In this document: positions 1 through 38,302 of the stretch, one piece after another
Numbering within the stretch: the first letter of the stretch is position 1
Layout: every line of letters begins with the position of its first letter
From: a virus
Reading direction: 5' to 3' (one strand)
DNA length: 38,302 bases
Virus record (IMG/VR): IMGVR_UViG_3300033552_000030
Span: 1 to 38,302 of that record
Position numbers and translations under genes: made by a program
Notes under the pieces: generated by a model
Told to the model about the DNA's origin: nothing
What the model saw: the letters and a program-made list of their open reading frames with translations, nothing else
The model's database searches: none

Positions 1-383
1 CGCCAGAGCAGGCAATTGAAAACTTAGACAAGGTTCGTGCAATCGTTCTTGATGACGAAAAACGCCTGCAAATGGACCACTGGCACGGAAGCGACGAATG
101 GCGCAATCGCACTTGCGCAGAGGAAACACTCTGCGGCACAACTCATTGCATGGCTGGCTGGCTGCAAGTCTGCACGACTGAGCAAGCCCTTAAAGATATT
201 CCGGCGCAACTCGCTGGTGTTCTTGCTGCGCCTATTGCCTCAAAGATGTTTTATCGCGGAAACGCTGAAGCGCTGGAATGGCTGCGTGATCGCAAATACG
301 CTGACGAAACCGAAGCCTACGAAAAGCGCGGCGCTGAATTGAAGGCGAAGCGTGAAGCAGCCGCAGCCACGGTGCAGCCATGA
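1..383 (+). CDS. Pentapeptide-repeat protein, C-terminal part (gene continues from 37749 across the circle join)
   Basis: This is the 3' part of the gene that starts at 37749; the reading frame enters at base 3 and ends with TGA at 381-383. Joined across the overlap the protein is about 238 residues. The part here is the non-repeat C-terminal domain. It carries a His/Cys/Trp-rich core (motifs [23 protein letters not shown]) and ends in a charged helical Lys/Glu/Ala tail. A Cys/His core of this kind could bind metal or form a small fold that docks a partner; I cannot name its activity. Base 93 is G here (Asp) but A in the duplicate copy at 38175 (Asn), so the two assembled ends differ by one amino acid. 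The next gene starts inside the stop codon (ATGA). Confidence 0.8.
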   Translation, partial: PEQAIENLDKVRAIVLDDEKRLQMDHWHGSDEWRNRTCAEETLCGTTHCMAGWLQVCTTEQALKDIPAQLAGVLAAPIASKMFYRGNAEALEWLRDRKYADETEAYEKRGAELKAKREAAAATVQP

Positions 384-1345: not shown

Positions 1346-1584
1346 ACTACTACAAAAACTGCCCGACAACGCATTGCAAATGCACGCAGCCAATGATCTG
1401 CAACAACGGTTGCTACATCACGCCGCTGCATCAGGACAACAGCGACAACAGCGACAAGACCGACAACGGTGACACGCAGGCACTGACAGCGCCCGAAACG
1501 ATCCTTTTCGGCGGGGTGGTGCTGGCTGGCACCGGGATTTGCGCTGCAGTGCTCGGCTATGCCTGGCAGCGGTTTTTTAACTAA
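1342..1584 (+). CDS. Cys-rich N-terminus with C-terminal membrane segment, 80 aa
   Basis: The protein has two distinct parts. The first 25 residues hold five cysteines (CPTTHCKCTQ, MICNNGC), a pattern that could bind a metal or form disulphides. A polar Asp/Asn/Ser linker (DNSDNSDKTDNGD) follows, and residues about 53-75 form a hydrophobic helix (ILFGGVVLAGTGICAAVLGYAW) ending in a basic aromatic tail. The layout suggests a tail-anchored membrane protein. No family is recognised. The gene is coupled to its upstream neighbour by ATGA and ends 10 bases before the recT start. Confidence 0.7.
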   Translation: MNYYKNCPTTHCKCTQPMICNNGCYITPLHQDNSDNSDKTDNGDTQALTAPETILFGGVVLAGTGICAAVLGYAWQRFFN

Positions 1585-1594
1585 GGGGATTGAT

Positions 1595-2455
1595 ATGACT
1601 GCCGCACTCGCTGCACAACCATCCAGCGCCATCACACTGACAGATAAGGAACTAATCGACGTTCTGACCTCATCGCTTTACCCTGGCGCCAACCCGCTTT
1701 CAATAAAGATGGTTTTGGGGTATTGCAAAGCAGCAGGCTTGGACCCGATGCAAAAGCCTGTTCACATCGTTCCAATGTGGGACAGCAAAGCCGGTGCAAT
1801 GCGTGATGTGGTCATGCCCGGCGTTGGTTTGTACCGCACCCAAGCCTCACGCACCGGGCATTTTGCAGGGCAATCAGAGCCGGAATTTGGGCCAATGATT
1901 ACAACCACACTCAGCGGCGTGTCGGTAACCCATCCTGAATTTGCAAAAGTCACAGTCAAAAAATCAATGGCTAACGGCAGCATTGCGGAGTTCACGGCTA
2001 TCGAATACTGGATTGAAAACTACGCCGTGAAAGGCGGTAAAGAAAAGTCTTCGGCGCCAAACGCCATGTGGCTCAAACGCCCTCGCGGGCAGATTGCGAA
2101 ATGTGCCGCCGCCCAGGCGTTGCGTCTGGCATTCCCCGAAATGGGCGCACAGCCTACAGCCGAAGAAATGGAAGGCAAGACGATGCACGATGACGTTGCA
2201 GAGCGTTCCATCAATCCAGAAACCGGCGAAATTACCACTCACGTTTTTGATGTTTACGCTGCCTTGAATGCGGTTGAAATTTGCATAAATCCAGAGGCAT
2301 TGCTAAAGGTCTGGAAAACCGAAGGTGCAAAGGCGGTTGCTGCAAAAGACAAGGCCGGGCACGCAGCTCTAAAGGATGCCGTCAAGGCCCGCCGCGCAGA
2401 GTTTGAGGCCGACAGCGCCAACGAAAACATTATTGATGCAGAGGTGACTCAATGA
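1595..2455 (+). CDS. bet: RecT/Bet-family single-strand annealing protein
   Basis: The product, 286 aa, matches the RecT/lambda Bet annealing family: it starts with a helical ELIDVLTSSLYPGA segment, has the conserved region around residues 30-60 (MVLGYCKAAGLDPMQKPVHIVP), and the family-typical WLKRPRGQIAKCAAAQALRLAFPE block near residues 155-180. Such proteins coat resected single strands and anneal complementary DNA during phage recombination and replication. I start it at ATG 1595, with AAGGGG at 1583-1588 as ribosome site; the upstream extension overlaps the previous gene. The exonuclease partner follows directly with an ATGA overlap, as in lambda red. Confidence 0.92.
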   Translation: MTAALAAQPSSAITLTDKELIDVLTSSLYPGANPLSIKMVLGYCKAAGLDPMQKPVHIVPMWDSKAGAMRDVVMPGVGLYRTQASRTGHFAGQSEPEFGPMITTTLSGVSVTHPEFAKVTVKKSMANGSIAEFTAIEYWIENYAVKGGKEKSSAPNAMWLKRPRGQIAKCAAAQALRLAFPEMGAQPTAEEMEGKTMHDDVAERSINPETGEITTHVFDVYAALNAVEICINPEALLKVWKTEGAKAVAAKDKAGHAALKDAVKARRAEFEADSANENIIDAEVTQ

Positions 2456-3081
2456 GCGCGCTGATTATCCAAGGCAGCGAGGAATGGTTTGCCGCCCGCA
2501 TGGGCCGCGTGACCGCCTCGCGTGTGGCTGATGTGGCCGCAAAGACGAAAAGCGGCTACAGCACCAGCCGCGAAAACTACTGCATCGAGCTGGCGCTGGA
2601 GCGCCTGACCAGCACGCGGCAAGAGTCCTTCACCAATACCGCGATGAAGTGGGGCACCGAAACCGAGCCACTGGCCCGCGCAGCCTACGAAGCGCATACC
2701 GGCGCGCTGGTTGATGAGGTCGGCATGGCTGCGCATCCGTCGATTGACATGGCCGGCGCATCGCCTGATGGTTTGGTTGATGACGATGGTTTGCTTGAAA
2801 TCAAGTGCCCGAACTCAGCCACCCACGCCAGTACCTTGCTATCAGGTAAACCAGACGGCAAATACATCATTCAGATGATGTGGCAAATGGCTTGCACCGG
2901 TCGCCAGTGGTGCGACTTCGCTAGCTTTGATCCACGCTTTCCGCAGCCGCTACAACTGTTCGTCAAACGCATCCCGCGTGACGCCGAAAAGATCGCAGAA
3001 CTGGAGGCCGAGGTAGTCAAGTTCTTGGCCGAAGTGGATGACATGGTTAACAGACTCAACAACATGAAAGAGGCAGCATGA
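2452..3081 (+). CDS. exo: YqaJ/lambda Exo-type 5'-3' exonuclease
   Basis: The 209-aa product is a PD-(D/E)xK nuclease of the YqaJ/lambda exonuclease type. Visible motifs are the N-terminal GSEEWFAARMGRVTAS, the GTETEPLAR helix near residues 68-76, and the catalytic block SPDG (Asp106) followed by EIKCP (Glu116, Lys118). It would resect double-strand ends 5' to 3' and load the adjacent RecT/Bet protein. Its start overlaps the recT stop and its stop overlaps the next start, so exonuclease, annealase and the SSB-like protein are one coupled recombination cassette. Confidence 0.93.
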   Translation: MSALIIQGSEEWFAARMGRVTASRVADVAAKTKSGYSTSRENYCIELALERLTSTRQESFTNTAMKWGTETEPLARAAYEAHTGALVDEVGMAAHPSIDMAGASPDGLVDDDGLLEIKCPNSATHASTLLSGKPDGKYIIQMMWQMACTGRQWCDFASFDPRFPQPLQLFVKRIPRDAEKIAELEAEVVKFLAEVDDMVNRLNNMKEAA

Positions 3082-3371
3082 GCGATTACGACAACACGAA
3101 CCGAGGCGTACTTTTCAAAAACGACCGCAAACAAGAAGGCGACAAAAAGCCCGAATACACCGGCAGCTTGAATGTCGATGGCGTTGAGTTTTTTCTGGAT
3201 GCCTGGCTGAAAGTCGGCAAGAGCGGTGCGAAGTTTATGAGCGTGTCCGTCAAGCGCAAAGACAAGCAGCCAGAAGCCGCGTTACAGCAGCGCCAGCCAG
3301 CGCCAGCGGCCCGACAAGCGCCGGCCAGCCAAGGCAGCGGCTTTGATGACATGGACGAGCCACCTTTCTGA
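3078..3371 (+). CDS. Small SSB-like protein with acidic C-terminal tip, 97 aa
   Basis: The N-terminal 60 residues form an alternating beta pattern (NRGVLFKND, EYTGSLNVDGVEFFLDAWLKV, KFMSVSVKRKD) like the small DUF736-type phage/plasmid proteins. A flexible Gln/Pro/Ala linker follows (about residues 65-85), and the chain ends in an acidic tip FDDMDEPPF. That order of compact beta domain, disordered linker and acidic tail ending in Phe is the hallmark of bacterial SSB, where the tip recruits repair proteins. Placement directly after exo fits a single-strand DNA role. The OB-fold assignment is an inference. Confidence 0.75.
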   Translation: MSDYDNTNRGVLFKNDRKQEGDKKPEYTGSLNVDGVEFFLDAWLKVGKSGAKFMSVSVKRKDKQPEAALQQRQPAPAARQAPASQGSGFDDMDEPPF

Positions 3372-3373
3372 CC

Positions 3374-3550
3374 ATGCCAAGCACCGGAGAAACCAAACTG
3401 GCTCAGATGCGGGCCTATTACCGGACCCCGAAAGGCCAAGCAGCTAGCGTAAAGAAGTACGACACGAAGCTAGCAAAGCTGGGTAAGCGCCGCAAACCCC
3501 TTAAAGCAAAGCCAGCGCCGCTGATTCAGGCACTGGCTAATTGGAGATAG
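3374..3550 (+). CDS. Very basic small protein, 58 aa
   Basis: This gene starts at ATG 3374, two bases after the preceding stop, and ends with TAG 3548-3550. The product is strongly basic (KKYDTKLAKLGKRRKPLKAK in the centre) with an aromatic/Lys N-terminal half (MRAYYRTPKGQAAS). The shape resembles small phage nucleic-acid binding peptides, but no family is recognised. The next gene begins 3 bases downstream, so it fits the packed operon. It falls below the usual length cut-off and is easily missed. Confidence 0.6.
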   Translation: MPSTGETKLAQMRAYYRTPKGQAASVKKYDTKLAKLGKRRKPLKAKPAPLIQALANWR

Positions 3551-3553
3551 ACC

Positions 3554-4009
3554 ATGACCACAGCCACTCGCCAACATTACCCACTAATTCCTAAATGGTT
3601 TCAGCCGAAAGTGGCGCAGTCCGTGCAAACCACGGTGCAGGTTTACCATTGGCAAAACATCACCGCCATTGTCGGCGGCAAGGCTGATGCGTCTGTTCTG
3701 TGGGACTGGGTTGAATCCGCGCTGACCTACTCAGAAATGATGCGCCTGCTGCAAAAAGACGGCACAGAATTTACGCCGGAGGCGGTGACGGTGATTGCCG
3801 AACAACTAGAAATTACTCCGCTGGTTGTGGCACGTTTTCGCCGTACCAGCAGGGTCGGCTTTTCCGGCACCGAACTAAACATTGCCAAAGCCGCAGCGCA
3901 TGTGATGGACAGCCTGATTGGCATGGACCGCCACGGCATAGCCTGGCAGTCGCGGCAGTGGAGTAATGCGCAAATTGAACTATTAAAAAAGCAAGGCGAA
4001 ACCGTATGA
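3554..4009 (+). CDS. Hypothetical phage protein, 151 aa
   Basis: The protein is soluble and mostly helical. An N-terminal aromatic region (PLIPKWFQPKV, YHWQNITAIVG) is followed by an acidic helix and a segment around residues 70-100 (EFTPEAVTVIAEQLEITPLVVARFRR) that could form an HTH-like helical pair. A C-terminal aromatic stretch (IAWQSRQWSNAQIELLKK) completes it. I do not recognise the family and no catalytic motif is visible. It ends with an ATGA overlap into the next gene. Confidence 0.75.
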   Translation: MTTATRQHYPLIPKWFQPKVAQSVQTTVQVYHWQNITAIVGGKADASVLWDWVESALTYSEMMRLLQKDGTEFTPEAVTVIAEQLEITPLVVARFRRTSRVGFSGTELNIAKAAAHVMDSLIGMDRHGIAWQSRQWSNAQIELLKKQGETV

Positions 4010-4653
4010 CCGACACAACCCATCCAGACCGCCACTTACAAGAGTTGCAGGCTTACGAGTTGACAGTGAGTAATTTGCGGGCAGAGTTGGCGGCAGAGCG
4101 GGCACAGCCTGCCAATGATCGTGCAGCTTTTGAGGCTTGGGCAAAGCGTGAGGGGTTAAATCTTCGCAAGGCCGAGGCAAAAGAGCCGGGAGGAATACCT
4201 AGTTCGCGTTTTGGCCTTCGCCCTGCCAGCTTCTATTTTGATGAAGCTGAATGCGCTTGGAGGGCGTGGGCAAACAAACCAATCACGCAGCCAGTACAGC
4301 CAGCCGCCAAGGACATTCTTGGAGCGGTAGCACGCGGATGGTGTCATCCAATAAACGCCAAAAAAGTAATGGACTCGGACTTGGCTATCGCTATCAGTGC
4401 CGAGGTAAACGCTTTGCTTGAAGGTCAGCCAGCCGCACCTATAACGCAAGCAGCACAGCCTAGCCAGCCTACGGATGCTGAGCGGCTGGATTGGTTGGAG
4501 CGCCAAGATTTTGATAGCTTGGGTTTTGCTCTGGTGAGTGATGCTCCTCATGACGGGGAGTACAGGATTGAAACTGATTTTGGTACGTACTACGGCAAGG
4601 CGTTGCGCGAAGCAATTGACGCAGCCCTCACCACAAGCAAAGGAAAAACATGA
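4006..4653 (+). CDS. Modular hypothetical phage protein, 215 aa
   Basis: The sequence looks modular: an N-terminal coiled coil (residues about 8-40), a block AAFEAWAKREGL with a matching CAWRAWANK further on, Pro/Gln/Ala linkers (ITQPVQPAAK, ITQAAQPSQP), and a C-terminal block DAERLDWLERQ leading into REAIDAAL. The FEAWA/WRAW and ERLDWLE blocks recur in many phage proteins of unknown role, including a variant (FEAFAKS) at 5571-5888 here. The function is unknown. Both ends overlap their neighbours by ATGA. Confidence 0.75.
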   Translation: MTDTTHPDRHLQELQAYELTVSNLRAELAAERAQPANDRAAFEAWAKREGLNLRKAEAKEPGGIPSSRFGLRPASFYFDEAECAWRAWANKPITQPVQPAAKDILGAVARGWCHPINAKKVMDSDLAIAISAEVNALLEGQPAAPITQAAQPSQPTDAERLDWLERQDFDSLGFALVSDAPHDGEYRIETDFGTYYGKALREAIDAALTTSKGKT

Positions 4654-5048
4654 CCACAAACCTTGAGCGGGCGAAAGCCTGCAATGCAATTTTTACTGAC
4701 GGGTGGGGGCGCACTGTGATTGGGTTGACCTCTGACCAGCTTGACGCCTACACAGCCCAAGCCATCCGGGATGCGCCTAGTAAGTGCCCCGGCATACCGC
4801 GTGCAGGGTGTAACTACATAACGGAGTGTGGGCAAAGCTGCAACAAATGCGGCCATGTTCACCATGCACACCAGTTAAGCGCAGAGCCAGAGGCTAATCT
4901 AGTGAGAGCGGTGCCGCTGAGTGATGAGCAGATTGCCGATTTATGGGACGCGCAGCTTTTCCACATCACCGATCTGGCTGGTGCTATTGATTTGGTGCGC
5001 GATGTCGAAGCAGCGCACGGCATTAGCACACAGGGGGTGAAGTCGTGA
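4650..5048 (+). CDS. Hypothetical protein with Cys/His cluster, 132 aa
   Basis: The central region (about residues 45-75) contains a dense Cys/His cluster: CPGIPRAGC, then ECGQSCNKCGHVHHAH. Two CxxC-like pairs plus histidines suggest a zinc-binding knuckle. The flanks are helical: the N-terminal LERAKACNAIF and a C-terminal acidic SDEQIADLWDAQ helix typical of small phage accessory proteins. No enzyme signature is visible. Start and stop overlap the neighbouring genes, the stop with a GTG start at 5045. Confidence 0.7.
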   Translation: MTTNLERAKACNAIFTDGWGRTVIGLTSDQLDAYTAQAIRDAPSKCPGIPRAGCNYITECGQSCNKCGHVHHAHQLSAEPEANLVRAVPLSDEQIADLWDAQLFHITDLAGAIDLVRDVEAAHGISTQGVKS

Positions 5049-5215
5049 GCTACCTTGTAAAAATTATTCATTCGGAGACTGGCGAAGTGGTCAAGATGAT
5101 CGAAGCTGTATCAGAGCACCACGCTGACAGGATTGAGGGTGGTGTTTTGATCAACCTTAATCACGATCAATATCACACCGAAATTGCGCCACCCACACCC
5201 AAAGGAGCCGCATGA
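5045..5215 (+). CDS. Small hypothetical protein with GTG start, 56 aa
   Basis: The gene starts at GTG 5045 inside the upstream stop (GTGA) and ends at 5213-5215 inside the next start (ATGA at 5212). The product is a small beta/alpha protein (SYLVKIIHSETGEVVKMIE, then ADRIEGGVLINLNHDQY). The double overlap leaves little doubt that the frame is translated. The family is unknown. Confidence 0.6.
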   Translation: MSYLVKIIHSETGEVVKMIEAVSEHHADRIEGGVLINLNHDQYHTEIAPPTPKGAA

Positions 5216-5574
5216 CAACCGACAAAGAACTGCTTGAGCTTGCAGCTAAGGCTGTAGGGCTTGAACTGCAGTGGCACAAAAGCGCTTTGACCGGCGAGGC
5301 TTTGCCAAGCCCTACGCATTACACGCCAGGATGCGGGCATGTGTACTGGAGCCCACTCGACGACGACGGCGAGGCTCTGCGGCTTTTAAATCGTCTACCT
5401 TTTCACACTCTTTATGTGTCGGAGATAGGCGCTACGGTATTTATCCCGCACGAACCAAACACTGTTGGCCTCAAGTGCGACGAGTACGCAAGCGAGCACG
5501 GCGGCAATTTAGACGCAGCAACCCGACGCGCCATCACCCGAGCCGCTGCTGAAATTGGAAAGGAAATGCCATGA
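5212..5574 (+). CDS. Hypothetical phage protein, 120 aa
   Basis: The product begins with a helix (KELLELAAKAVGLEL), has a central aromatic region (YTPGCGHVYWSPLDDDGEALRL) and ends in a helix (DAATRRAITRAAAEIGK). This LELAAKAVG...WNPLDDDGDALRL arrangement is common among small early proteins of proteobacterial phages and has no known function. A ribosome site AAAGGAG lies at 5200-5206 upstream of ATG 5212. The stop overlaps the next start. Confidence 0.8.
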   Translation: MTTDKELLELAAKAVGLELQWHKSALTGEALPSPTHYTPGCGHVYWSPLDDDGEALRLLNRLPFHTLYVSEIGATVFIPHEPNTVGLKCDEYASEHGGNLDAATRRAITRAAAEIGKEMP

Positions 5575-5888
5575 CAACCGAAGCACAAAGGGCCGCGTTT
5601 GAGGCGTTTGCCAAGTCGAAGCGGTACAAGCTGGATAAAACCGTTGGCGGCAACTATCTGATTGCTCAGACGGCAATTTTGTGGGAAGGCTGGAAAGCTG
5701 CCATCAGGGCAGATCATGCGCTACCAGAGCCAACCGTGCCAGACAAGATGCAGGACTGGGCCGGAATGGATGGCGTGACAGCTTTTCACCTCATCACGCG
5801 CCACTCCGACAACTGGGGCGATGTGGACAAGATGATGGGCGAATGGCTAGCTGCAAATTGCGCTGCTGCAATCAGGGAGGGCGTATGA
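5571..5888 (+). CDS. Hypothetical phage protein, 105 aa
   Basis: An N-terminal block RAAFEAFAKSKRYKLDK followed by ILWEGWKAAIRA matches the widespread phage motif of an FEAFA helix and a W-x2-W helix, also present in the 215-aa protein at 4006. The C-terminal half is acidic and aromatic (QDWAGMDG, HSDNWGDVDKMMGEWLAAN). It is soluble and of unknown role. The ATGA overlaps at both ends keep it in the same transcript as the excisionase and integrase. Confidence 0.75.
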   Translation: MTTEAQRAAFEAFAKSKRYKLDKTVGGNYLIAQTAILWEGWKAAIRADHALPEPTVPDKMQDWAGMDGVTAFHLITRHSDNWGDVDKMMGEWLAANCAAAIREGV

Positions 5889-6157
5889 GCGATCTAAACC
5901 GCCAGCAACTTTGTGCCGCGCTGAATGTGTCGGAATCAACCGTCAGGCGCTTGGAGCATGATGGACTACCATTTACACCAGTCGGCACCCGGTCAAAGCG
6001 TTACGACTTGGCCGAATGCAAACTCTGGCTGAAAGCAAATCAATGTCAATCTGGGAAGACTCCAAAGGCCGTAAACATGTCGGGGTCATGGTCGGGGGTA
6101 AAAGACTTCACCGAATCCTTCCGGTCGGCTCGTCTGCGAGTGACGCCAAGCGCATAG
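5885..6157 (+). CDS. xis: Excisionase-like HTH DNA-binding protein, 90 aa
   Basis: Residues 4-55 form a MerR/AlpA-type winged helix: LNRQQLCAALNVSESTVRRLEHDG is a helix-turn-helix and TRSKRYDLAECKLWLK is the wing and following helix. Proteins of this type placed directly before a tyrosine integrase act as excisionases or recombination directionality factors. The last 35 codons overlap the integrase gene in another frame by about 115 bp, as lambda xis and int also overlap. The overlap tail (Ser/Lys rich) looks unstructured. Assignment as excisionase rests on the HTH plus position. Confidence 0.75.
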   Translation: MSDLNRQQLCAALNVSESTVRRLEHDGLPFTPVGTRSKRYDLAECKLWLKANQCQSGKTPKAVNMSGSWSGVKDFTESFRSARLRVTPSA

Positions 6158-6993
6158 ACGCAGAGCTTCGCGGCTCAATCGTCAAGACGGTAAAGCCGGT
6201 CAATATCCCCGGCGACCCGCCTTTGACGTCGATCATGGCGCTTTATATGGCCCATACCGACACCTTAAAGAGCCCGCAAACCGCCAAATATCACGCCATC
6301 CGGTTCGGCCCATGGGCTGAAAAGTACAAAGCCAGCGAAACCCGCAAGGCTGCAGCCCACTTTATCAAGGACGCTCAGCCGAAATACGCGGCGTCAACCA
6401 TCAACTGGAGCCTGTCAACGCTGAAGAAGGGTTTAGAGCTGGCGTACAACATGGACCTTATCCCTGAGAACTACGGCGACCGGGTGACCACGTTGGCGGT
6501 GCACAACATCCGGGACAAGGTTCTGACCATGGATCAGCTTAAACGACTTGTCGAACACTGCAGCGAGCCGGTACGGGTTGCCATCTGGATTGCCATCTAC
6601 ACAGGCTGCAGGCGGGGGGAAATACTGTCAATGACGCAGGAAAGCATAGGCGCGGACAGCATCACGGTTTACGCTGGCAACACCAAACGCCATAAGACAC
6701 GCACGATTCCCATTGTTGCGCCGCTGCGCCCATGGCTTGATCATGTGCCGATTGGTATCAATTTTGAAGGGCTGAAGTCGGGATTTAGACGCGCCAGGGT
6801 CAAGGCTGATCTTGAGTGGCTGAATTTTCACGATCTGCGGCGGTCGTGTGCAACCATGATGATTGCGGCTGGCGTTGATTTGTACGTGGTCAGCAAGTTG
6901 CTGGGACACTCCAGCGTCACGGTGACGCAGACCCGCTACGGACATCTGCAGACTGACCGCATTGCGGCTGGCCTAAGCAAGACTTTTGGGTAA
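6043..6993 (+). CDS. int: Tyrosine recombinase integrase
   Basis: A phage integrase of 316 aa when started at ATG 6043 (an upstream in-frame ATG at 6016 gives 325 aa). The N-terminal 50 residues look like an arm-binding domain (WEDSKGRKHVGVMVGGKRLHRI), a core-binding SAM-like helical domain follows, and the catalytic domain carries Arg190 (TGCRRGEI), His263-x-x-Arg266 (HDLRRS), His289 (LLGHSS) and the nucleophile Tyr299 (TRYGHL). All key residues are present. It is the last gene of the rightward operon and ends one base before a tRNA-Val gene on the other strand, the usual position next to attP. Confidence 0.95.
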   Translation: MSIWEDSKGRKHVGVMVGGKRLHRILPVGSSASDAKRIDAELRGSIVKTVKPVNIPGDPPLTSIMALYMAHTDTLKSPQTAKYHAIRFGPWAEKYKASETRKAAAHFIKDAQPKYAASTINWSLSTLKKGLELAYNMDLIPENYGDRVTTLAVHNIRDKVLTMDQLKRLVEHCSEPVRVAIWIAIYTGCRRGEILSMTQESIGADSITVYAGNTKRHKTRTIPIVAPLRPWLDHVPIGINFEGLKSGFRRARVKADLEWLNFHDLRRSCATMMIAAGVDLYVVSKLLGHSSVTVTQTRYGHLQTDRIAAGLSKTFG

Positions 6994-31999: not shown

Positions 32000-32199
32000 G
32001 ACTTCAGCTCTATCAGCTTGTCAAGGTAATGGCGGGCCTTGAGCAGATCCTGCACGCCACCTTTGTCTTTCCAGCGGCTGACGTACTTGATGACGTTACC
32101 CTCAAGGTAGCCAATGTCGTTGCCGACGATGTAGTCCCACGGCTGGATTGCTTTGCCTTTGTAATGGTTGCCTGCAACCTGCTCGTCGTTGGCGCTCAT
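31996..32199 (-). CDS. DUF3310-family protein, 67 aa
   Basis: The sequence HYKGKAIQPWDYIVGN, GYLEGNVIKYVSRWKDKGGVQDLLKARHYLDKLIE fits the DUF3310 family almost completely. The family is widespread in phage early and DNA metabolism regions and its biochemical role is not settled. The gene is coupled to ninG upstream and to the 66-aa gene downstream. Confidence 0.88.
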   Translation of the reverse strand: MSANDEQVAGNHYKGKAIQPWDYIVGNDIGYLEGNVIKYVSRWKDKGGVQDLLKARHYLDKLIELKS

Positions 32200-32810
32200 T
32201 CGATTTCCTTTTGCAGTGCCCGCGTTTTTGCGGCGTGGTAAGTCTTGATATTTTTCAAATCGTCAATCGTGTAATGCCGCGTCGGGTGATGGCCCTCAAG
32301 CCACTCGACCAGATCTACGCCGATTTTTGCAATCAAGCCTTTGCGAAACAGCACCGCATTACCCGACAGGTGCGTATTGCAGGGCGCGCATTGCAGATGC
32401 ACGTTCAGCGGCTCATAGCGCAGTTCTGGCCGTGCGCCTACGCTGAGGTAATGCCCGGCGTGGTTTTGCCCTTGGTGGTGCCGTCCGCACGATATACAGG
32501 CGTTGCCAGCGTCACGGGCACGCACCCATTTGTTAAATTCGGTCTGCGCTTCACGCGCCCATTGCGCACGGCTTTTGAGCGTTTCGCGTTTCACCGCATC
32601 AGCCTTGCGCTCTTTGACTTGCGCGATTTTTTCAGCCTTGCCGTTGACCGACCGGGCAAAGGTCAGCGCACAGAACGGGCTGCACACTTTTGCACCCATG
32701 CGCGCCGGGGTGAAAAGCGTTTTGCACACCTTGCACGTTTTCTGCTTTTCTCTAGCCTGGCGCAGTCTTTTGGACTTTGGTTGAGCCGTTGGTGGTTTGC
32801 GGGTAATCAT
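32196..32810 (-). CDS. ninG: NinG (Rap)-like recombination protein
   Basis: The 204-aa product has the NinG features: a Cys cluster (CKVCKTLFTP, CSPFCA) in the first 60 residues, a basic helical linker (KADAVKRETLKSRAQWAREAQ), and an HNH-like zinc region CISCGRHHQGQNHAGH ... HLQCAPCNTHLSGN. In lambda, NinG/Rap is a structure-specific endonuclease that cuts D-loops and Holliday junctions and boosts Red recombination. It starts in the ATGA overlap with a small frame at 32807-33061. Confidence 0.9.
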   Translation of the reverse strand: MITRKPPTAQPKSKRLRQAREKQKTCKVCKTLFTPARMGAKVCSPFCALTFARSVNGKAEKIAQVKERKADAVKRETLKSRAQWAREAQTEFNKWVRARDAGNACISCGRHHQGQNHAGHYLSVGARPELRYEPLNVHLQCAPCNTHLSGNAVLFRKGLIAKIGVDLVEWLEGHHPTRHYTIDDLKNIKTYHAAKTRALQKEIE

Positions 32811-32847
32811 GATGCTATGCTTTCAATAGCTACTTGAGTCCGCTGTA

Positions 32848-33054
32848 CTAGCGCTGGCGGTTGTTTTGGCTCGCAAACCACACCGCGCGCGCCTTGCTTT
32901 GCGCCTCCGGTAGCGGCTGGTGCTTTTCGCAGTGATGCGGTGATGGCAGGTACTCCCAGCGCGGGCCGTGGGCGCACGGTGCAAGGCCGTGTCGCGCCAT
33001 GCTTGATGTTTTGAGTTGCCAATGGCTGCAACTCATGCAATTTAGATCGTGCAT
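32848..33054 (-). pseudogene. Zinc-ribbon-type protein, 3' part split off by an HNH gene insertion
   Basis: The sequence MHDLNCMSCSHWQLK ... CAHGPRWEY ... HHCEKHQP has a CxxC ... C ... C/H pattern of a small zinc-binding phage protein and is therefore considered the real frame here. In frame upstream, codons Glu-Ala-Thr-Cys-Arg precede Met33054, and the same Gln-Glu-Ala-Thr coding sequence ends the fragment starting at 33587. The HNH gene between them therefore appears to have cut one gene in two. The fragment may still be translated from ATG 33054 or by read-in. The overlapping frame 32807-33061 has GGAGG and an ATGA link to ninG but low-complexity sequence. Confidence 0.6.
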
Positions 33055-33542
33055 CCTGCATGTAGCCTCCGTTTTGCGTTTACGTATGCTTCGTGCGCTT
33101 GATTGGCAGTTTCAAATGCACCTAATGCGGTACGAATACCGTTTGTTTTGATATAGGCGCGATAAAGCCGCTCAGTGCCTTTTGGAGATGTGACTCCCAA
33201 CAACCCAGACATATTGTTTAGACGCGCCTTTTTTACATTTTGCGAATTTGTGATTCGTGGCACATCTCTCAAATTTGAGATTCGGTTGTCAGAGCAAATA
33301 CCATTTATGTGGTCAATCACACCGTTCGGCCAATCGCCATACACGTAAAACCAGGCCAAGCGATGCAACCTGTAAAAAGCACCATTCAACTTAATTCTTA
33401 AGTACCCAGCGCCATCACAAGTACCAAGTACACGGCCAATAATTGCTCTTGAATGCCACGGCACAGATGCCGTCGTAAACAGGCCAGAATCTGGTTCATA
33501 AGCCACAAGGCTTTTTAGCTTTTCATGCGTTAGTTCATTCAC
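33042..33542 (-). CDS. HNH endonuclease with AP2-type DNA-binding domain, inserted in another gene
   Basis: Started at GTG 33542, with AGGAGG 5 bases upstream, the product is 166 aa. The HNH motif is VIDHINGICSDNRISNLRDV (about residues 73-92) and the C-terminal part is an AP2-like domain (GLLGVTSPKG ... LGAFETANQAHEAYVNAKRR). These mark free-standing mobile endonucleases. The gene is bordered by a 9-bp direct repeat GGAGGCTAC (33544-33552 and 33062-33070 as reverse complement) and separates two halves of a small gene. It may also start at 33587 as a fusion with the gene fragment's N-terminus. Confidence 0.85.
   Translation of the reverse strand: MNELTHEKLKSLVAYEPDSGLFTTASVPWHSRAIIGRVLGTCDGAGYLRIKLNGAFYRLHRLAWFYVYGDWPNGVIDHINGICSDNRISNLRDVPRITNSQNVKKARLNNMSGLLGVTSPKGTERLYRAYIKTNGIRTALGAFETANQAHEAYVNAKRRLHAGCTI
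33062..33070. repeat. 9-bp direct repeat, right of the HNH cassette (partner 33544-33552)
   Basis: GTAGCCTCC occurs at 33062-33070 and 33544-33552, 482 bp apart, one copy at each end of the HNH endonuclease gene. On the coding strand it is GGAGGCTAC, which also contains a ribosome-binding sequence. Joining the two copies restores one open frame. Confidence 0.75.
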
Positions 33543-33587
33543 AGTAGCCTCCTGTAATTGTTTGGGCAGGTTTGGCAGCTCATTCAT
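33543..33587 (-). pseudogene. 5' fragment of the gene interrupted by the HNH cassette
   Basis: Reading from ATG 33587 (ATGA overlap with the upstream gene), the codons give MNELPNLPKQLQEAT and then run into the HNH gene. The same Glu-Ala-Thr codons reappear at the far side of the insert, where they continue into the zinc-ribbon sequence. The fragment is the former N-terminus of that protein, or now an N-terminal extension of the endonuclease. Confidence 0.55.
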
Positions 33588-33799
33588 GCAGCCTCCCAAT
33601 ACCCAGCCCGGTTGCCCCGTCCGGAATACCTGACGTGCACAAGGGCCAAACTGCGCGCTTCTAGCCACACCAGGGCCGCGTAAACGTCAATCCTTGCCAT
33701 ACCTATTTCGCGCGATATCTGGGACGCTGTGACTGCACCGTGCGCCAGAAAATCCTTGATGCATTGGGCGTGTTCGGACATTGGCTCGGTGTTGCTCAT
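33584..33799 (-). CDS. Small winged-helix DNA-binding protein, 71 aa
   Basis: The product is a compact winged HTH: helix 1 MSEHAQCIKDFLAHG, helix-turn-helix AVTASQISREIGMARIDVYAALVWLEARSL, and a wing ALVHVRYSGRGNRAGYW. It overlaps the P-like gene stop (ATGA) and the split gene start. It may regulate the early genes, or assist replication given its neighbours. Confidence 0.7.
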   Translation of the reverse strand: MSNTEPMSEHAQCIKDFLAHGAVTASQISREIGMARIDVYAALVWLEARSLALVHVRYSGRGNRAGYWEAA

Positions 33800-34353
33800 G
33801 CTGCAACCCCGGCATACATGCGCTCAAGCCGCATCAACTCTTTGGCCTCGTCACCGCCAGCACAGCCCACCGCGTCCGCAATAGCGGCCCACAGCAACGG
33901 CAGGCCAGTAACCGGCACCGGTGCAACCGCTTCAGCCTTGATCCTGGCACTTGCTGCGCGGGCTTCATCGGCATGGCGCTTGCGGGCCTCTTGGCTCATG
34001 GCCACGGGCGGCAGCGCGGGCCTGTACGCTTCACGCGGTGCACAGGCACGGCAGAAGTCCATAAACTCGGGTAGGCTTGGCGGGAATTCTGGTTTATCGC
34101 GCTTGCATCGGTCTAATGCGTCAATCACGACTGACTCGGAAAAGCCGCGCAGGTCATAAGCCCACACCTTGCGAGCGCTGGCAACGCCCATGTCCCGCCC
34201 TTTGTCGTCCAGCACGCCGGTGGCGAACTTAGACAAAAACAGGTTGCCATACGCGCCGTGCAGCACTTTAAAAACATTGTTTGCCGTGCCTTCAATAGCG
34301 GCGGCGGGCGGGCGGGTGAATTGTTCGGCAGTCAGGTTGATAGATGTCAGCAT
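33796..34353 (-). CDS. P-like replication protein (helicase loader), 185 aa
   Basis: The N-terminal half follows the lambda-P-type pattern: FKVLHGAYGNLFLSKFATGV, then VWAYDLRGFSESVVIDALDRCKRDKPEFPPSLPEFMDFCRAC. In lambda P, this part recruits host DnaB helicase to the origin. The C-terminal half is Ala/Arg-rich and helical. The gene follows the O-like initiator directly, sharing its stop/start overlap (stop 34355-34353), the same order as lambda O and P. Confidence 0.8.
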   Translation of the reverse strand: MLTSINLTAEQFTRPPAAAIEGTANNVFKVLHGAYGNLFLSKFATGVLDDKGRDMGVASARKVWAYDLRGFSESVVIDALDRCKRDKPEFPPSLPEFMDFCRACAPREAYRPALPPVAMSQEARKRHADEARAASARIKAEAVAPVPVTGLPLLWAAIADAVGCAGGDEAKELMRLERMYAGVAA

Positions 34354-35123
34354 TATTCGATCTCCGAGTCAAAAATAGCGGCGGCGGCGCCGGCGAATTT
34401 GTGGGTGTTGCGGGCTTGAACGGGCGAGTCCCTGCTCGCGTACCAATCGGCTTTAAACCCCTGCCAGCCGCGTTCACAGCAGGTTTTCAAAGCGTCCTCA
34501 AGGCTCACACCCGCTTTTTCCGCTTCGCGCTGTATGCCCGCCAATGCGGTGTTGGTCATCGGGGATTTTTTGGCGCGACGGATTTTTAGAAAATCTTCCC
34601 AAACCACATCACACACGCCGAAAGGCGCAACGCGGCACGCGGTGTCCTTCTTTGTCAGGGTTTCAGGAATCAGTGAATCAGGAATCAAGGAATCAGGAGT
34701 CAGCCCGATTGCCATAGTTGCCGCATCTGGTTTGCACAGTGTTTGCACAGTGTTTGCACAGTGCTTTGTTGTTGCTGGTTCCGCATCAGCAACATGCCCG
34801 TTCTGATCTGGCAGGATGCTCGCCTTTTCGTCGCGGTGCGGGTTCTGGTGTTTAGTAAAGTTCACAACCTGCAAGTACCGTGCGCCGTTGATGGTGTAGC
34901 GGGTAATCATTCCGGTTGCGGCTAACTGCTCCAGCAATGCATCGCAGTCCACGGTGTCAGCAGGAAACACATCCATCTTGATCTGCTTGGGTCGATCCTC
35001 TAGGCGTCCTGCACGGTCAGCCAGTGTCCAGAGCCCAATGAACAGCAAACGCGCCTCCATTGGTAACTCGACAAGATCGGCATTACGGAAAAAACCGGGC
35101 TTAATATTGCGTGCGCGTGCCAT
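34353..35123 (-). CDS. O-like replication initiator with internal iterons, 256 aa
   Basis: The N-terminal domain (ARNIKPGFFRNADLVELPMEARLLFIGLWTLADRAGRLEDRP, residues 4-44) is the winged-helix start shared by many phage replication initiators. It continues to NFTKHQNPHRDEKAS. A low-complexity middle holds the iteron-coded sequence (PDSLIPDSLIPET, NTVQTLCKPD). The C-terminal part (VWEDFLKIRRAKKSPMTNTAL, then ALKTCCERGWQGFKADW) is a DnaD/DnaB-interaction type domain. The helicase loader follows directly. Replication presumably starts in the iteron block inside the gene, as in lambda O. Confidence 0.85.
   Translation of the reverse strand: MARARNIKPGFFRNADLVELPMEARLLFIGLWTLADRAGRLEDRPKQIKMDVFPADTVDCDALLEQLAATGMITRYTINGARYLQVVNFTKHQNPHRDEKASILPDQNGHVADAEPATTKHCANTVQTLCKPDAATMAIGLTPDSLIPDSLIPETLTKKDTACRVAPFGVCDVVWEDFLKIRRAKKSPMTNTALAGIQREAEKAGVSLEDALKTCCERGWQGFKADWYASRDSPVQARNTHKFAGAAAAIFDSEIE
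34664..34763. repeat. Iteron block inside the O-like gene, candidate replication origin
   Basis: Three perfect tandem copies of TTTGCACAGTG occupy 34731-34763 (11 bp each). About 35 bp away, 34664-34702 carries five imperfect copies of a GGAATCA element (GGAATCA, GTGAATCA, GGAATCA, AGGAATCA, GGAGTCA). Two iteron families inside the initiator gene is the lambda-origin arrangement. The initiator would bind one or both. Confidence 0.7.
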
Positions 35124-35399
35124 TTACAGCGCCACCCAAACCCGGCAACCACCCCGAACGGCTTCAGACTTCACAATCCCGCCTGCTTCGCTAATACGGC
35201 GCTGGACGGTGTAATAGTCCATCTTCAAGCCGTCAGCAATCTCACGCGCGGTAAGACCCGCAGGCGTTGATTTGACGGCCTTGCTGATAGCTGCACGGTC
35301 TTTGTCAGCCTTGCAGCTGGCCGCGTGGTGCGCAGCTTCGCGGCTGGTGTCCGGGTCGGTGTTGCGCGACCGGGTGTGCGTAAATGTGAGGTTTTGCAT
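35124..35399 (-). CDS. Small winged-HTH protein, 91 aa
   Basis: The N-terminal segment HTRSRNTDPDTSREAAHHAAS is shared with many phage early proteins. The C-terminal half is a winged HTH (GLTAREIADGLKMDYYTVQRRISEAGGIVKSEAVRGGCRVW). It is placed just before the O-like gene. AGGAAAA is its ribosome site. A role in regulating the early operon or in replication set-up is likely but not shown. Confidence 0.8.
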   Translation of the reverse strand: MQNLTFTHTRSRNTDPDTSREAAHHAASCKADKDRAAISKAVKSTPAGLTAREIADGLKMDYYTVQRRISEAGGIVKSEAVRGGCRVWVAL

Positions 35400-36219: not shown

Positions 36220-36522
36220 TTAGGCGGTGCGCTGGTCGTTGCCTGTGCGCCTATCCGGGTCGGTGCGGCGTTGGCTGGCTCGGCGTGTGCTAACGGTGCG
36301 TTTGTCGGCGGCACTGGCGGCCAGCTCGGGCCAAATGGCCTGCCAGTCGTCGGGCAACAAGTCCTGCAGCGTTACTTCTGGGTCAATACTGTTCCAGCGC
36401 CGCGCAAACTTGGGGCTGGGCACCTTGAGACCCTTGATGATTTGGTAGAGGTATTGCTCGTTGCAATCCAAGAGCGCGGCCACTTCGTAGCGACGTTCTG
36501 GTGTGTAATTTGGAAGTGCCAT
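36220..36522 (-). CDS. cro: Cro-like HTH repressor, probably leaderless
   Basis: The N-terminal 60 residues form a Cro/YdaS-type HTH (YTPERRYEVAALLDCNEQYLYQIIKGLKVPSPKF). The C-terminal tail is basic and disordered (RRASQRRTDPDRR). It is transcribed away from the CI-type gene. I choose ATG 36522: the promoter -10 element ends 7 bases before it, so the mRNA probably starts at or next to the ATG, and no ribosome site is seen. A longer start at 36540 would place the start codon inside the -10 area. Confidence 0.8.
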   Translation of the reverse strand: MALPNYTPERRYEVAALLDCNEQYLYQIIKGLKVPSPKFARRWNSIDPEVTLQDLLPDDWQAIWPELAASAADKRTVSTRRASQRRTDPDRRTGNDQRTA

Positions 36523-36525
36523 ATC

Positions 36526-36572
36526 AAATATTCTAACCATCGGCTAGCTTTATGCAAGCTCTCAGCTAGAAA
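36526..36572 (-). promoter_or_regulatory. PR-type promoter and operator of cro
   Basis: On the minus strand TTGCAT (36557-36552) and TAGAAT (36535-36530) are 16 bp apart. The elements CTAGCT (36569-36564) and CTAGCC (36547-36542) lie 22 bp apart around the -35, and AGCT-GAG-AGCT forms a palindrome just before it. The same arrangement recurs at 37647-37693. Repressor binding here would block cro and the leftward early operon; a weak cI promoter could lie on the other strand. Confidence 0.75.
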
Positions 36573-36601
36573 TATTATTATTGGTCTGGTGCAATAACTC
36601 T

Positions 36602-37288
36602 ATGGCTGCAGAAGAAAACAGGCTCGCAAATTTTCGGAGCATAGTGGACAAAGAGGCGCAGGAAGCCGGGGGGAAACTGCGGCTTGGTTACCGCGCGGTC
36701 GCAGCGACGACAGGCCTGAACGAGGAATACGTCTACCAGCTCTACAAAGGCAGAAAGACCAACATTAGCAGCGCGGCGGCAAAAACGATTGCCCGTGCTT
36801 ATTCGAACGGCAGGCCATCTGGTTGGTTTGATGGGCTGATGAATGCGACTGATGTTTTGGTCGCTGATGTGACCCTTCACCAATACAACACCGGCGGCAG
36901 CATGGGTAACGGCTTAAAGTTAGTAGATCAGCCAGGCACGATCAAAAGCTGGAATGTCGATAAAGAGTGGATTCGCATGAATGTGAAGCATCACACTAGT
37001 GACGAGAATTTATGCATCGTCACAGGCTTTGGCGATTCCATGCTGGGCATGTACAACCCTGGCGATCCGCTACTTGTCGATAAAGGCGTCACATCCTGCG
37101 AATACGATGGCGTGTACTTTTTCCGGGTTGGTGATGAAGGATTTATCAAACGCCTGCAACGCATACCGGGCGAAGGGCTTTTAGTGATCAGTGAAAACCC
37201 GCGATATAGAGACTGGACCATCAAGCAAGGTGCAGACTTTGCCGTGTTGGCCAAGGTCTTGAAGGTGTGGGAAAGCAAGCAGTTTTAA
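36602..37288 (+). CDS. cI: CI-like repressor with S24 autocleavage domain
   Basis: From ATG 36602 the product is 228 aa. Residues 25-65 form an HTH (GYRAVAATTGLNEEYVYQLYKGRKTNISS). The C-terminal half is an S24 peptidase: the nucleophile Ser146 in TGFGDSMLGM, then NPGDPLLVDKG, and Lys183 in GFIKRLQR. This is the arrangement of lambda CI and LexA, so SOS-induced self-cleavage is likely. No clear Ala-Gly cleavage pair is visible in the linker. It is divergent from cro over a shared operator. A TTG start at 36581 adds seven residues and is less likely. Confidence 0.92.
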   Translation: MAAEENRLANFRSIVDKEAQEAGGKLRLGYRAVAATTGLNEEYVYQLYKGRKTNISSAAAKTIARAYSNGRPSGWFDGLMNATDVLVADVTLHQYNTGGSMGNGLKLVDQPGTIKSWNVDKEWIRMNVKHHTSDENLCIVTGFGDSMLGMYNPGDPLLVDKGVTSCEYDGVYFFRVGDEGFIKRLQRIPGEGLLVISENPRYRDWTIKQGADFAVLAKVLKVWESKQF

Positions 37289-37329
37289 CCGCGCCCACGC
37301 GTCCCGTGGGAATAAAGAGGGGGATCAAG

Positions 37330-37530
37330 ATGCAGAAGTTATTAATGCTCGCCATGGCATTGTTTATGGCTGGGACCGCCAACGCAGCGACGGCATTTTT
37401 TACCGGCCGCCAAGAGATGGTCCAGACGGTCACCTACCAACAAGCGTGGCGCTGTGAGTACAACTACCTCGGACAGACCTTCTACCGGCTTTTCCAGACA
37501 AGTTGCCCTTCTAGCGTGCAAGTCCAGTAA
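37330..37530 (+). CDS. Small secreted protein with signal peptide, 66 aa
   Basis: Start ATG 37330 with GAGGGGG upstream. Residues 1-19 are a Sec signal (MQKLLMLAMALFMAGTANA, cleavage after ANA). The mature 47 residues (ATAFFTGRQEMVQTVTYQQAW, then CEYNYLGQTFYRLFQTSCPSS) contain two cysteines that could form a disulphide. Proteins of this type sit near the repressor in many prophages and may be lysogen-expressed envelope proteins. It could be made from the repressor transcript, because it follows cI by 41 bases and is closed by a terminator. Confidence 0.8.
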   Translation: MQKLLMLAMALFMAGTANAATAFFTGRQEMVQTVTYQQAWRCEYNYLGQTFYRLFQTSCPSSVQVQ

Positions 37531-37552
37531 GAGCCACTCGCCATCGCATCAG

Positions 37553-37575
37553 CCGCCCCTTGAGGCGGTTTTTTT
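37553..37575 (+). terminator. Intrinsic terminator after the secreted-protein gene
   Basis: CCGCC (37553-37557) and GGCGG (37564-37568) form a stem with a 6-nt loop followed by seven Ts (37569-37575). It closes the cI / secreted-protein unit and insulates it from the pentapeptide promoter about 90 bases on. Confidence 0.88.
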
Positions 37576-37646
37576 ACGCCCGCTTTTTCCTTTTACAACT
37601 AATTCTTAATTAAGGGTTTTTACTTATAGGGTTTATTTTGATCTAA

Positions 37647-37693
37647 TTTCTAGCTGACAGCTTGCCTTTTACTAGCCATCAGATAGAATAATT
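37647..37693 (+). promoter_or_regulatory. PL-type promoter and operator, duplicate of the cro promoter
   Basis: TTGCCT (37662-37667) and TAGAAT (37684-37689) are 16 bp apart. CTAGCT (37650-37655) and CTAGCC (37672-37677) lie 22 bp apart, and AGCTG-A-CAGCT is a perfect palindrome just upstream of the -35. Over this stretch the sequence matches the cro promoter region closely, with the differences confined to the spacer and a few bases. Upstream DNA (37611-37646) is AT-rich with AGGGTTT twice, 15 bp apart. Confidence 0.75.
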
Positions 37694-37748: not shown

Positions 37749-38302
37749 ATGACGACAAAGAAAATCGTAAGCCGTTGGGATAGCAGCAAAGTTCTGTTTG
37801 AGTGCGAACTGCCAGACGGCACGCCGAGCGGCTTGGCCATGCGCCATGCGCTCGAAAAAGCTATTCTGAGCGATGCCGACCTGAGCGGTGCCGACCTGCG
37901 CGGTGCCTACCTGAGCGGTGCCGACCTGCGCGGTGCCTACCTGCGCGGTGCCGACCTGAGCGGTGCCGACCTGAGCGGTGCCTACCTGAGCGGTGCCGAC
38001 CTGAGCGGTGCCGACCTGAGCGGTGCCGACCTGAGCGGTGCCTACCTGAGCGGTGCTGATGGCAAACAACTTCCACGCGCCACGCCAGAGCAGGCAATTG
38101 AAAACTTAGACAAGGTTCGTGCAATCGTTCTTGATGACGAAAAACGCCTGCAAATGGACCACTGGCACGGAAGCAACGAATGGCGCAATCGCACTTGCGC
38201 AGAGGAAACACTCTGCGGCACAACTCATTGCATGGCTGGCTGGCTGCAAGTCTGCACGACTGAGCAAGCCCTTAAAGATATTCCGGCGCAACTCGCTGGT
38301 GT
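37749..38302 (+). CDS. Pentapeptide-repeat protein, N-terminal part (continues at base 1; ends at 383)
   Basis: The gene starts at ATG 37749 (GGAG upstream), about 50 bases after the predicted start of the PL-type promoter. Residues 1-39 form a small N-terminal domain, residues 40-104 hold 13 pentapeptide repeats of the A(D/Y)L(S/R)G type, and a C-terminal domain with a [10 protein letters not shown] core follows to residue 238. Repeats of this type form a square beta-helix that can mimic DNA, as in Qnr/MfpA gyrase-protection proteins. As first gene of the rightward early operon it may act on host DNA enzymes, but that is inference. The last 220 bases duplicate the start of the window. Confidence 0.9.
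37866..38060 (+). repeat. 13 tandem 15-bp units coding for the pentapeptides
   Basis: Thirteen in-frame copies of CTG(A/C)GCGGTGCC(G/T)AC run from 37866 to 38060 without gaps; the first has GAT in place of GGT and the last is CTGAGCGGTGCTGAT. The high DNA identity suggests recent expansion and possible length variation. The assembly ends meet just after this repeat. Confidence 0.95.
38083..38302. repeat. 220-bp terminal redundancy equal to bases 1-220 (circular assembly)
   Basis: The sequence from 38083 to the end repeats 1-220, with one substitution (38175 A, 93 G). This shows the contig closes on itself as a circle of about 38,082 bp; the mismatch points to a mixed population or an error at the join. 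Confidence 0.95.

Follow-up and report, generated by a model that had tools for sequence, protein, structure and literature searches.

The window, that is, the whole 38,302-nucleotide stretch of viral DNA that was analysed, contains a divergent cI/cro pair with candidate operators between the two genes, and matching candidate operators at a second promoter, PL, beyond cI. The PL operon carries recombination and int genes and the PR operon carries replication genes, as in lambdoid phages. The features of the region and of both early operons are as follows.

36220–36522, minus strand: cro, an ORF for a YdaS-like Cro, start ATG at 36522; profile and predicted-fold match to YdaS.
36530–36535, minus strand: PR −10, TAGAAT, read from the sequence, 7 nt ahead of the cro ATG; this spacing recurs in relatives.
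36533–36547, minus strand: candidate operator OR1, CTAGCCGATGGTTAG; covers the PR spacer and runs into the −10; centre at −62 from the cI ATG.
36552–36557, minus strand: PR −35, TTGCAT, read from the sequence.
36555–36569, minus strand: candidate operator OR2, CTAGCTGAGAGCTTG; overlaps the PR −35; centre at −40 from the cI ATG.
36578–36592, no strand: place of OR3 in relatives (L012, L015, L007, L134, L141, L148, L153 and L154 compared); no recognisable operator in the window.
36602–37288, plus strand: cI, with an N-terminal HTH and an S24 peptidase-type C-domain (PF00717, phrog_4, LexA/λ CI fold).
37330–37530, plus strand: small ORF whose start resembles a signal peptide, positioned as rexAB is in λ; no family match in the family search.
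37551–37577, plus strand: terminator-like hairpin and T-run, separating the cI operon from PL.
37650–37664, plus strand: candidate operator OL2, CTAGCTGACAGCTTG; overlaps the PL −35.
37662–37689, plus strand: PL promoter, TTGCCT, 16 bp, TAGAAT, read from the sequence.
37672–37686, plus strand: candidate operator OL1, CTAGCCATCAGATAG; covers the spacer and runs into the PL −10.
37749–38302, plus strand: pentapeptide-repeat gene (PF00805), first gene of the PL operon; resumes at window base 1 via the end overlap.
1559–6993, plus strand: rest of the PL operon, with RecT-like (1559–2455), YqaJ exonuclease (2452–3081) and integrase (6016–6993) genes.
32196–35399, minus strand: PR operon past cro, with genes for an HTH protein (35124–35399), a replication initiation protein (34353–35123) and NinG (32196–32810).

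The two ends of the record, window 1–220 and 38083–38302, overlap by 220 bp, so the pentapeptide-led plus-strand operon continues at base 1. At least one base differs within the overlap (gaagcAacg and gaagcGacg), which replaces Asn by Asp in the pentapeptide protein. The genome in this record is probably circular or permuted, with a small variant in the population. Just upstream of OL2, at 37611–37640, lies an element like AAGGGTTTTTACTTATAGGGTTTATTTT. It is near-identical in the window and in L012 (upstream of 5205), with a weaker likeness in L011 (upstream of 1103), and is a candidate UP element or other binding site. The PL leader, when folded, gave a hairpin no better than those of shuffles.

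Twin modules at PR and PL

A sequence-only reading of this DNA had noticed that the segments preceding cro and the pentapeptide operon line up. Minus-strand 36572–36526 and plus-strand 37647–37693 are indeed identical at 35 of 47 positions without a gap (74%). The runner-up match in the window, outside both sites, is 26/47, and the best match in 200 dinucleotide shuffles of the window averaged 25.3, with a maximum of 29. Each module holds a sigma70-type promoter with a −35 of TTGC(A/C)T, a 16-bp spacer and a −10 of TAGAAT, and the CTAGC starts are 22 bp apart in both; these spacings are those claimed earlier. That reading also took the CTAGC/AGCT elements to be the operator. The operator role is supported, but the unit is different: instead of separate elements, each module has two 15-bp dyads with the consensus CTAGC-N5-GCTAG (degenerate form C[T/A]AGC-N5-GCT[A/T]G). 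One dyad ends in the −35, where GCTTG supplies TTG, and the other reaches into the −10, sharing the TAG of TAGAAT.

Dyad pairs scoring 19/20 occur at just these two places in 38.3 kb. The next pair reaches 15 and no shuffle exceeds 17; no further operator pair was found by dyad-pair score across the whole 38.3-kb window. CTAG is depleted in the window: its base composition predicts ~145 occurrences, and 61 are seen. Of the four sites, two are off consensus in one half (CTAACC and CTATCT), and the −35 and the PRM −10 are poor. The distance from OR to OL is ~1.1 kb.

The relatives L148, L150/L134, L153, L154, L141 and L151/L007, whose cI is of this class, have three OR sites centred at about −63, −41 and −17 relative to the cI ATG; in L151/L007, one of the three is weaker. 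These distances are close to those of λ OR1–OR3. The window matches at the first two positions, and no OR3 is recognisable in it, so that the three-operator OR of λ is not reproduced there. Most relatives have OR3, and the nearest one, L012, has a decayed OR3 (8/10). OL has two sites in the window phage, as in each relative for which the PL pair was read. The missing OR3 suggests that Cro would repress PRM weakly or not at all, and that the same would hold for autorepression of cI. Phages with fewer than three OR sites still count as lambdoid; a two-site OR lowers only the case for a switch identical to that of λ.

In the relatives, site 3 is followed by TTGAAT and, 6–8 nt on, by the cI ATG; the cro-proximal site is followed by TAGAAT or TAGACT and, 5–9 nt on, by the ATG of the Cro-type protein. 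In the window, the cro ATG lies 7 nt past the −10 and the cI ATG 6 nt past a poorer TGCAAT. From these −10-to-ATG distances, leaderless cI and cro mRNAs are predicted. A PRM −10 at 36573–36578 was considered and dropped, as it would place an operator inside the PRM spacer and the relatives show TTGAAT-N6/7-ATG. On the basis of this arrangement in relatives, a leaderless PRM with OR2 at −40 was adopted. In λ, OR2 is near −42 from PRM. The λ cI mRNA is leaderless (PMC8630535).

CI, Cro and the operator in relatives

The CI protein matches PF00717 (1e-15) and the phrog_4 transcriptional repressor (6.9e-32), and its predicted structure has the LexA/λ CI type of fold. The C-domain is of the S24 self-cleaving type, with Ser146 of FGDSM and Lys183 aligned with UmuD. 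In AlphaFold models, the second helix of the HTH is EEYVYQLYK in CI (residues 41–49) and EQYLYQII in Cro (residues 22–29). In an ungapped alignment with the recognition helix of the 434 repressor, the Glu and Gln common to CI and Cro fall on base-contacting positions. Because the two proteins share this recognition-helix core, Cro very probably reads the operator dyad too. The assignment of Cro as YdaS-like comes from similarity in both sequence and fold: the profile of its relatives matches solved YdaS (8co2/8c7k) at about 1e-9, YdaS is the top match of the predicted fold (E 1.6e-3), and the LRPxDWxxIWPE motif is present. The window Cro gave no PF15943 hit above the curated cut-off, and its relatives reach 27 bits against a cut-off of 30.

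As a lone query, the window CI had no match in viral contigs and a single poor one in genome contigs; CI relatives were retrieved with an alignment as query instead of the single sequence. The nearest named ones are from phages of Bordetella and Paracidovorax, which suggests Burkholderiales as the putative host group. A pattern search for the host in 398 genomes, all belonging to the same phylum as a Paracoccus hit, produced 0 matches.

A search of related phages for the module had been proposed as a check, and the relatives bear the proposal out. The HTH is conserved in the close relatives L012 and L015, and so are the operators at PR and PL. L013 and L014, with CIs 58–59% identical, have a different HTH and lack the operators. 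When IMG/VR was scanned with operator DNA only, 53 stretches were found, 49 of which encode an HTH protein with the helix motif [EDKQ][EQ]Y[ILVM]YQ; in most contigs this protein lies within 15–70 bp of the module. The converse scan, with Cro protein only, gave 80 loci, 71 with a helix of the EQYLYQ type and 9 with other helices. At least one strict site lay at most 260 bp upstream in 69 of the 71 helix loci, 62 of which had two or more, versus none of the 9 others, and random 300-bp windows of the same loci had a site in 9.5% of cases. With redundancy removed at 60% identity, the contrast is 11/11 versus 0/6 (Fisher 8e-5), to be read with the fact that homologous loci share history, so that co-occurrence is partly inherited even after such filtering.

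Specificity appears to follow the DNA-binding half of CI. Among 27 CI relatives with various operators, the similarity of the PL-side module tracks the CI N-domain (Mantel p 0.0035) and does not track the C-domain (Mantel p 0.45), although the C-domain coding DNA sits between the N-domain coding DNA and that module. Twin PR/PL modules with other operator sequences also recur: 16 of 71 CI-relative loci score at least 22, where the 99th percentile of mismatched control pairs, some of them sharing operator type, is 20.5. It follows that the twin architecture belongs to this CI group in general and that what varies is the operator sequence.

Several loci depart from the cI-cro arrangement of the window. 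L130, L140, L131 and ~40 further contigs of the operator-DNA scan have the same module with a YdaS-like protein of 72–76 aa (NEQYLYQCLTGRREM) in divergent orientation to it. In this group, no cI was seen in the fetched DNA, and a recombination-type ATPase is among the products of the downstream genes; the YdaS-like protein may be the sole regulator there. L007 (5348–5821) and L010 (5609–5133) encode a 158-aa CI with the HTH of this class, accompanied by the operators, and a short C-terminal part with no S24 match, seemingly a class repressor that lacks the usual cleavage domain. In L134/L150, the ORF in the cI position has the class HTH, and its C-terminal part matches a stretch of type III restriction/DEAD helicase, so that a fusion, a remnant or faulty assembly is suspected.

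Proposed switch and its place among known phages

We consider it highly likely that a temperate lambdoid phage has its immunity region here, in which CI and the YdaS-like Cro would read paired dyads at OR and OL. The co-occurrence of helix and operators, and the tracking of operators by the CI N-domain, favour CI and Cro as readers of the sites. The earlier suggestion that the CI encoded at 36602 controls both early operons fits the order of the genes, the content of the operons and the comparative evidence. Site architecture, gene content, the helix–operator association and the λ-like geometry are seen in the sequence; we infer binding and repression, along with PRM activation, cooperativity or looping, an SOS response and leaderless mRNAs, as follows. 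CI (xEEYVYQ) and Cro (xEQYLYQ) would read CTAGC-N5-GCTAG through a nearly identical recognition helix. In the lysogen, CI dimers on OR1/OR2 and OL1/OL2 would shut the PR (replication) and PL (recombination/integration) operons. The 22-bp spacing corresponds to two helical turns and would put adjacent dimers on one face of the DNA, permitting side-by-side cooperative binding, and CI on OR2, centred at −40 from the cI start, would be placed to activate PRM. OR–OL looping, which is known in λ, would be possible over ~1.1 kb. The Ser146/Lys183 pair suggests that, upon DNA damage, CI probably cleaves itself and both operons open; mitomycin C induction had been used to isolate a prophage whose CI is related. 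Cro would compete with CI for the same sites and, after induction, damp both operons.

Other readers of these sites have to be weighed. It is conceivable that only one of the two proteins reads them, with Cro acting alone and CI binding elsewhere, or with CI using all sites and Cro a single one. In about 45 contigs of the operator scan, a Cro-type helix protein is present and no CI of the class is in the fetched DNA; moreover, the Cro proteins of PY54 and phiKO2 bind OR3 only, so Cro need not use every site. Against this, the CI of the window phage and its relatives bears the same helix core as Cro, and where a CI relative has another N-domain, its operators differ in OR as well as in OL. A single reader is unlikely. 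Shared regulation that has nothing to do with CI and Cro, by a CII-like activator or a regulator of the host, would account for the direct repetition of CTAGC at a 22-bp interval within each module, but the relatives carry full dyads. The sites also go together with a single phage-encoded helix and are missing where the helix is a different one, and they overlap −35 and −10, the position of a repressor, and are found nowhere else in the window. The CII-like direct-repeat reading was rejected on account of the complete dyads in relatives, and a reader of this general kind seems very improbable. We give almost no credence to a recent promoter duplication in which the second copy lacks regulatory meaning. 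In its favour, the two copies are 74% identical, but identity is confined to the promoter and the dyads, with variable bases in the dyad centres and the spacer, and the copies are kept as a pair in relatives and, with other operator sequences, in many CI relatives. Joint recognition by CI and Cro is retained as the most probable reading.

The architecture is already known. The window phage shares with λ the divergent cI/cro genes, matching PR/PL operators, a PL operon leading to recombination genes and int, and a PR operon leading to replication genes. It differs in its operator and HTH sequences, YdaS-like Cro, predicted leaderless cro, lack of a recognisable OR3, and two OL sites versus three. 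The closest experimental precedent for paired PR/PL repression is the cryptic prophage CP-933P of E. coli O157:H7, which also has a YdaS-type Cro. Its PL has the same −35/−10 as PR and similar operators, and YdaS and the CI analogue PaaR2, which has no similarity to λ CI, repress both promoters (PMC8630535). In contrast to the window phage, its operator repeats have the consensus GTTTAGTAA, OL has three sites, and YdaS has another recognition helix. A two-site OL is found in phiKO2 (three OR and two OL operators), and OL3 is absent from Stx phage 933W. In PY54, both cI and cro mRNAs were measured to be leaderless, as predicted from sequence here. Operator sequences differ in 933W and in the telomere phages phiKO2, N15 and PY54; the latter three are linear plasmid prophages, and in phiKO2 and PY54 Cro is confined to OR3. 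Bordetella phage vB_BaM-IFTN9 (L003) has a CI 51% identical over the last 179 residues and twin modules, one ahead of cro and one beyond cI and a further gene, with a different operator, TTTTGCGTTTCGCTAAA, and other CI and Cro helices. The modules of this named, mitomycin-induced phage lie at about 4780–4818 and 6358–6396, and it is a convenient laboratory relative for the same switch logic.

The operator/helix class and its two-way predictive link appear to be undescribed. No published description of the operator was found in searches of open-access papers, and the operator type had been unfamiliar to the sequence-only reading as well; named phages with a YdaS-like Cro (mEp043, Klebsiella phage 5 LV-2017, PHB09 and PseuP_224) have other helices and none of these operators. 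On balance, we are inclined to think that the helix xE-E/Q-Y-[VIL]-YQ, common to CI and Cro, defines a widespread CTAGC-N5-GCTAG class, in which the N-domain and OR/OL form one specificity set joined to unrelated C-domains, and in which some phages keep the operators with a Cro-type protein alone. If so, the Cro-type protein would be the sole regulator in phages that keep the operators without a class CI. A two-way sequence rule would then lead from six recognition-helix residues to the operator and from the operator to the regulator, and for many uncultured phages it would allow early promoters, immunity groups and cross-immunity to be predicted. The class would lend itself naturally to tests of how CI and Cro hold to one specificity as the remainder of each protein diverges, and the window phage would be a case for how a λ-type switch works without OR3.
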